In this document: positions 31,614-33,568 of the stretch, piece after piece
Position numbering within the stretch: position 1 is the first letter of the stretch
How the letters are laid out: each line of letters opens with the position of its first letter
Notes under the pieces: generated by a model
What the model was told of the DNA's origin: nothing
What the model saw: the letters and a program-made list of their open reading frames with translations, nothing else
Database searches by the model: none
Origin: Chloroflexota bacterium
GTDB taxonomy: Bacteria; Chloroflexota; Dehalococcoidia; Lucifugimonadales; UBA3495
Length of the DNA: 40,045 nucleotides
Direction of reading: 5' to 3'
Assembly: GCA_022562475.1 (NCBI GenBank)
Contig: JADFPD010000007.1
Location: 1 to 40,045, forward strand
Translations under genes and position numbers: made by a program

Positions 31614-32447
31614 ATGCAACCAGCCGACCTAAACATGACCACCACCGTCACCGGCCATCAGCTTTTTCTGTTCGTCACTTTGGCTGAAGGTAGGGCCGAC
31701 GGTGAGCTGGCGGAGGCCATCGACCTGCTGGGGCAGGGGATGGAGAACATACATGACGTTGACGGCCCGCCGTCCGACAAAGCGTTTGCGCTGGGGCGCT
31801 TTCAGTTCCTGCGGGCGGAGACTGGGTCTACCAGAGAGCAGCAGATTGTCCATCCGGCAGTGTCCGAGTCCCATGGAATGGTCAGGCTGGAGTGTGCTGA
31901 TTTGAAACCCATCAATGAATACGAGACCAGCCTTCGCACATTGATTGAAGCCACAGGTGGCTCGATTGAAACCCTGGCCGGGGTGATGCGACCGCGCAGC
32001 TACACCAGCCATGCCATGTCCGAGTTCGCCTATGCCCACGCCATGCCGCCTGGGCCGGGCGAGAAGTTCCCGTTGGCGGCCGTAACCCCCATGAACAAGA
32101 CCGACGAATGGTGGCAGATGGACTTCCTACACCGGGAGAGTTTCTTCCTGCCCCGCTACGACGAGAACGAGAACATGGTGGTCAAGGGACACGCCCTGGC
32201 GTCAGCCATGGGAGTCCTCAGTATCAACCGCCGGCTGGTCCACGCCCCGGAGGGCTATGGTCTGGAGGGACACTACGACTTCATCGGCTATTTCGAGTTC
32301 TCCGAGGCCGACGCGCCGGTCTTCCGCGAGGTCATGGCCGGGCTCCGGGACACGGAGCAGAACCCCGAGTGGAAATACGTGGTGGAAGGCCCCGAATGGT
32401 GGGGCCGCAGGGTCAGCGGCGCCGCCGCGTTTTTAGGGATCTCCTAA
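31614..32447 (+). CDS. Conserved-looking protein of unknown function
   Basis: Long ORF with coherent composition; possible start at MTTTV (31635). Stop overlaps the convergent stop of the minus-strand DUF3179 gene. Confidence 0.6.
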   Translation: MQPADLNMTTTVTGHQLFLFVTLAEGRADGELAEAIDLLGQGMENIHDVDGPPSDKAFALGRFQFLRAETGSTREQQIVHPAVSESHGMVRLECADLKPINEYETSLRTLIEATGGSIETLAGVMRPRSYTSHAMSEFAYAHAMPPGPGEKFPLAAVTPMNKTDEWWQMDFLHRESFFLPRYDENENMVVKGHALASAMGVLSINRRLVHAPEGYGLEGHYDFIGYFEFSEADAPVFREVMAGLRDTEQNPEWKYVVEGPEWWGRRVSGAAAFLGIS

Positions 32448-33568
32448 CCGGTTGTAGTCTCGTAAAGCTCAGTCTGGGGGTGGAAATCGCTCCAGGCGAA
32501 CCAGAATGAGTAGTGGGAAGGCAACCGTTCCAGCCTTTCACCGAACAACTCTCCTTCGACCGCCTGGCCGGTCAATACCTGCCAGAAACTGCCCGTTTCC
32601 CGGTCTTGCATCAACGCCACGCCTCCGCGCCCTGGGGCAGGCTCGAAGGTCAGTGTCCTGCCATCCAGCCGCCGCTCGAAGGCCGCTCCGCTTTCTGATG
32701 TCGGGTCGAACGTGATGACAACCTCCTCTCCGGCGAAATGGTCGTTGATCACGGACTGCTGGGAGATTGCGCTGAAGGGATAGGCCTTGGCGAATCCGGA
32801 GACAGTCATGCCCATGACCAGCTCTTTCTTGGGCAGACGCCGGTCCTTGTTGGACTCACCGATGATCCCCGCCGACCCGTTGTCGTAGTAGCCGCTATAG
32901 CTGTCGCTGCCGTAGCTCCCACGTTTGTCCAGTACCAAGGTGTCGGGGTGCAAGTTCAGCCACTGCTGCCAAGTGGTCTGGACGGCGGGGACGATCTCCA
33001 ATTTTTTGTTGAGCAGCGGCCCTTTGACGCCCTGGCTTAGGAATTGGCTCCACAGAGTATTCGATTGATGGTCGTACATGACCAGGGCATTCATGATCAG
33101 CTTGCCCGACACTCCGAATGTGTACACCATTCCCTCTATCTCTCGGGCATATACAATGCCCGTAAAGCAGAGGGGTCACCAGGTGACGGCGATCGGCTTG
33201 CCCCCCACCGTGTCGTTAACGATCTCGTGGCGCGACAGCATATTCAGAGGATAGGCCCGGCTGTCGCCGTTGATGGACACACCGATCACTCTTTCCTCCG
33301 GCCGCATCTGATCACCGGCCCCGCGGCTGCCGAACTCCGGCTCCAGGATCGCCGGGATGCCGTCGCGGCCGAGGATCGTAACGATCTTGACGTCTCGAGT
33401 GCCGTTGGACCCGGGCGTGCCTCGGGCTGACGCGTCGGCGATGGTAACTGTTTCACCACGAAAATTGAGGAAGAACTGACCAATCTTAGGCATGAATATC
33501 ACGGCGGCGACCAGGGCCACCAAAAGTATGATTATGATTGTGCTGGACTTGCCGATTATGTTTCCCAT
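32444..33568 (-). CDS. DUF3179-like protein, candidate selenoprotein (in-frame UGA at codon 131)
   Basis: ORFs 33176..33568 and 32444..33130 are in the same frame, separated by one TGA (33178-33176) and 15 sense codons: ...NDTVGGKPIAVTW-[TGA]-PLCFTGIVYAREIEGMVYTFGVSGKLIMNALVMYD.... DUF3179 proteins normally carry CPLC at this site. Confidence 0.8.
33132..33174 (-). promoter_or_regulatory. Bacterial SECIS-like stem-loop immediately 3' of the in-frame UGA
   Basis: RNA: UGA-C-CCCUCU-GCUUUA-CGGGCAU-UGUAU-AUGCCCG-AGAGAU-AGAGGG. Upper stem 7 bp perfect, lower stem 6 bp perfect, apical loop UGUAU starting 21 nt after UGA with G at loop position 2. Confidence 0.7.

Follow-up and report, generated by a model that had tools for sequence, protein, structure and literature searches.

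Proteins of the DUF3179 family with a UxxC/T motif are listed among the prokaryotic selenoproteins (PMC9312934, Table 1; PMC13188914), and the entry has been traced to Zhang and Gladyshev (2007) and the Delta1 symbiont of Olavius algarvensis (PMC9312934). The gene described here shares the Pfam family and the UxxC motif type, as compared with that listing. This answers a question that the initial annotation had left open, namely whether a DUF3179 protein containing selenocysteine (Sec) was already described (it was: PMC9312934, PMC13188914). In other respects it differs. The listed family has a deltaproteobacterial host, whereas this locus comes from SAR202-related Chloroflexota; and here several Sec paralogues occur per genome, with four in the source genome.

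SAR202 is an abundant deep-ocean group. A full-text search, most of the subscription literature being outside its scope, returned no paper in which SAR202 and "selenoprotein" occur together, and none that links Lucifugimonas with selenium; literature mentioning SAR202 and selenocysteine together does exist. The spread of several Sec DUF3179 paralogues through SAR202-related Chloroflexota seems to be unreported in searchable papers. The Sec family itself is not new; it is unusually abundant and deeply conserved in SAR202-type Chloroflexota.

The stretch of DNA analysed (the window; 40,045 nucleotides) is contig 132 of an assembly of 2.96 Mb, in 166 contigs and 78% complete. One minus-strand frame (33568-32444) holds a single 374-residue protein plus stop, with a TGA at codon 131 as the sole internal stop. 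The features discussed below are:

32444..33568, minus strand: putative DUF3179 selenoprotein gene, 374 amino acids, ATG start, TAG stop
33176..33568 and 32444..33130, minus strand: the two pieces into which standard ORF calling splits this gene
33494..33556, minus strand: hydrophobic helix near the N-terminus, residues 5-25, probably anchoring the protein in the membrane (AlphaFold2 secondary structure and sequence)
32927..33373, minus strand: first repeat domain, residues 66-214, carrying UxxC
33176..33178, minus strand: in-frame TGA, codon 131, the proposed Sec codon, in the alignment column of the first, invariant Cys of the CxxC motif
33167..33169, minus strand: TGC codon for Cys134, partner residue of U-P-L-C, invariant across 64 aligned proteins
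33144..33162, minus strand: upper hairpin of a bacterial SECIS, CGGGCAU-UGUAU-AUGCCCG, its stem beginning 13 nt after the UGA
32459..32836, minus strand: second repeat domain, residues 245-370, without UxxC

The coordinates, frame, length, TGA position and motif context (VTW-U-PLCFTG) given in the initial annotation are exact. Its view that the two ORFs make up one read-through protein is borne out by a single full-length match to PF11376 (DUF3179; Pfam), which takes in both pieces and spans the TGA (residues 68-366 against profile positions 1-292 of 292; E=1.1e-92). The score of 311 bits, against a gathering cut-off of 27, places the protein within the family; NCBIfam holds no model that matches it. 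As the annotation had also proposed, the TGA falls on the conserved first Cys and creates a UxxC motif: across 64 aligned DUF3179 proteins, taken from the window and related loci, residue 131 is always U or Cys and residue 134 always Cys. Cys-containing (CPLC) DUF3179 proteins are homologous to the window protein over its full length, but have TGC or TGT where the window has TGA. Though apparently broken, this DUF3179 gene is intact, and its internal UGA very probably inserts Sec; from the sequence evidence, we put the probability that it encodes a selenoprotein with Sec at UGA131 at about 0.97.

The source assembly contains all of the genes needed for this reading: tRNA-Sec with anticodon TCA (UCA), selB (E=1e-106), selA (E=5e-168), and selD (E=2e-112). 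The selD gene (L022, G000:C138, 1483-2529) has a UGA of its own, in frame at the active site (CAGU, within HCAGUAAKLS), so that SelD too is probably a selenoprotein. Across the family to which the genome belongs, 44 of 50 genomes have a selB; among those of best quality the count is 18 of 18. In six other loci (L123, L130, L133, L134, L136 and L145) the DUF3179 gene has a selD of the Sec type 2-4 kb away. The neighbouring genes in the window (molybdopterin-oxidoreductase-like, chlorite-dismutase-like, L-PSP family and methylmalonyl-CoA mutase genes) were considered as a clue to function and set aside, as they stay linked in closer relatives only.

DUF3179 is present in five copies in the source genome. 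In four of them a single TGA occurs, each time at the first-Cys codon though in differing contexts: VTWUPLC (the copy described here), VTYUIKC, and LAYUTLC (twice). The fifth (L005) is a Cys version, VTFCPLC. Within the family, 47 of 50 genomes have matches, many of the copies with a single TGA; in the copies that were fetched it lies at the Sec column, except for extra stops in L054, L065 and L074, which fall in run-on or decayed stretches. By motif, the Sec proteins of SAR202-related Chloroflexota fall into at least five subgroups, each of them UxxC. Across a broader sampling of the phylum, full-length copies are mostly stop-free, which places Sec use chiefly close to the window's family. 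Half-length copies with one TGA were seen in another Chloroflexota family (G059, G198, G182, G109, G100 and G158), whose full-length copies have no TGA.

Orthologues retain the codon. The UGA is present in 55 distinct orthologous sequences, the window's included, with the motif WUPLC or WUPVC; this set was picked for U, and its uniformity is not a count of Sec against Cys. The TGA at codon 131 is not a matter of chance, because it occupies the same column in these 55 sequences and in four of the five own-genome copies. Named relatives with the protein include SAR202-cluster, Dehalococcoidia and other Chloroflexota metagenome-assembled genomes (MAGs), the source of most of the sequences, and one closed chromosome, that of Candidatus Lucifugimonas marina strain JH1073 (L133). 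That organism is possibly in culture, because the record was deposited as a strain, which makes direct selenium-labelling conceivable.

A search by protein, regardless of codon, gave 57 loci. Among these, the only Cys version of the orthologue motif that was seen is in a tandem pair (L125), in which one copy has Cys and the other Sec (motifs at 169 and 1339). One further locus (L148), a fragment, is damaged and reads CGA at the site, another (L150) starts past the site, and several MAG copies have frame shifts elsewhere (L106, L142, L151). In a tree of 100 proteins the orthologues stay together, and another Sec group (VITYUPLCNTA) nests near Cys proteins; the Sec and Cys labels on this tree appear to need two changes, with one possible. 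One orthologue group keeps Sec strictly, and the genome has a Cys paralogue as well; the two provide a natural contrast for studying the retention of Sec. There is also a practical consequence: ordinary gene callers split SAR202 Sec proteins, and the orthologues are likely to be wrongly annotated as truncated proteins, as are at least four further groups of Sec paralogues.

The hairpin downstream of the UGA has a 7-bp stem, a 5-nt apical loop (NG[G/U]NN) at a distance of 20 nt from the UGA, and a minimum free energy (MFE) of -11.9 kcal/mol. Loop distance, apical loop, stem length and MFE are all within the limits of the general bacterial SECIS model (PMC13188914), whereas the stem sequence is lineage-specific. 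In 42 orthologue segments, chosen from the distinct ones with near-repeats and the frame-shifted L151 left out, 97.6% of cells are paired and five of the seven pairs show double-sided changes. The covariation score is 0.332; shuffled alignments average 0.079 (0/500), and slid registers do not exceed 0.068. The stem couples amino acids: FTGIVYAR occurs with GGGC...GCCC, and FSAIVYGR with GGCC...GGCC. When codons were resampled with the protein preserved, the native hairpin exceeded the resampled ones in 12 of 12 near orthologues (p <= 0.038; mean z -2.5). In the Cys homologues (n=23), which lack the conserved hairpin, the mean z is only -0.5. Other Sec groups have hairpins at similar places (mean z -0.8 to -2.1), the signal of the LAYUTLC paralogues (mean z -0.8) being weak and by itself not significant. 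In the tandem pair, the TGA copy has an intact stem (CUGGCAU/AUGCCAG); the TGT copy reads CCGGCAU/ACAACCG, which does not pair: the 3' arm is broken, and the stem is gone from the Cys copy.

A UGA at the Cys position of homologues, a bacterial SECIS within limits, and selA, selB, selC and selD, which are among the marks by which a bacterial selenoprotein gene is recognized, occur together here. The initial annotation had pointed to the same tests, and each came out in its favour: the four sel genes are in the window's own assembly, relatives keep the same in-frame TGA, and a SECIS hairpin 3' of the UGA is conserved through compensatory changes. Its selenoprotein interpretation is supported. 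We infer the following route. SelD would make selenophosphate, and SelA would convert Ser-tRNA-Sec to Sec-tRNA-Sec; SelB would deliver Sec at UGA131 by binding the hairpin directly 3' of that codon. The product would be a protein of 374 residues with two homologous beta-domains, the first of which bears U-P-L-C as a redox pair. The same mRNA could also yield a truncated product of 130 residues, without the redox motif.

Three other explanations must be weighed. The UGA might be read as another amino acid (by reassignment to Cys or Trp) or by plain readthrough; a reading as Cys would preserve function, since the Cys homologues have Cys there. Yet the other clear genes in the window are open without any reading of TGA, for example a methylmalonyl-CoA mutase of 598 residues, and Sec insertion is indicated by the full Sec machinery and by a covarying hairpin that is lost in the Cys copy of the tandem pair. 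Such a reading is very improbable. Standard ORF calling, which yields two pieces, would suit a dead gene split by a nonsense mutation, and some relatives (G037, G042 and G043) do have DUF3179 copies in genuine decay, marked by other stops. Their stops, however, lie at scattered places, whereas the identical TGA codon recurs in 55 orthologous sequences across deep divergence, in a frame that is otherwise intact in most; we give a pseudogene scarcely any credence. An error of sequencing or assembly turning TGC or TGT into TGA might be suspected in so fragmented a MAG, but is next to inconceivable given the TGA in independent assemblies, a closed chromosome among them.

Sec encoded by UAG was also considered. 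The DUF3179 copies of two relatives (G040 and G037) have one TAG each, but it lies outside the Sec site (e.g., LIM-O-DRQ), and so reflects ordinary decay or error rather than Sec.

The AlphaFold2 model of the protein, built for 32447-33568, is confident (pLDDT 92, pTM 0.87), with an N-terminal helix (residues 5-25) followed by two beta-rich domains. These are homologous to each other (hhalign E=6e-36), so DUF3179 is an internal duplication; the second domain reads FDPTSESG and has lost the CxxC motif. A search by sequence gave no solved structure as a match. The function with the best support would be that of a membrane-anchored, outward-facing redox protein with a selenol/thiol pair: the N-terminal helix would hold it on the outer face of the membrane, and the redox site would be able to form a selenenylsulfide.

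Rieske domains are among the best fold matches of the model in solved structures (E 0.025-0.1; probability up to 0.99), with a TM of about 0.55 against small Rieske domains. The likeness is in fold only, and is treated as a lead. The Rieske [2Fe-2S] ligand set, CxH...CxxH, is absent, the window protein having SxH...UxxC instead; homology finds no support in sequence, hhalign giving it a probability under 3%. The spacing H114-x16-C131-x2-C134 is Rieske-like, and H114 occurs in 56 of 64 proteins. It is conceivable, if rather unlikely, that SAR202-related Chloroflexota have an expanded DUF3179 set with an ancient dependence on Sec, and that DUF3179 is a duplicated Rieske-fold derivative in which U/CxxC has replaced the iron-sulphur ligands to make a new membrane-anchored redox site.

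One further match to the DUF3179 model, with a TM of 0.56 to the target and E=1.5e-8, comes from the giant virus Indivirus ILV1: the uncharacterised protein BFVD A0A1V0SD44, possibly a viral relative of the family.
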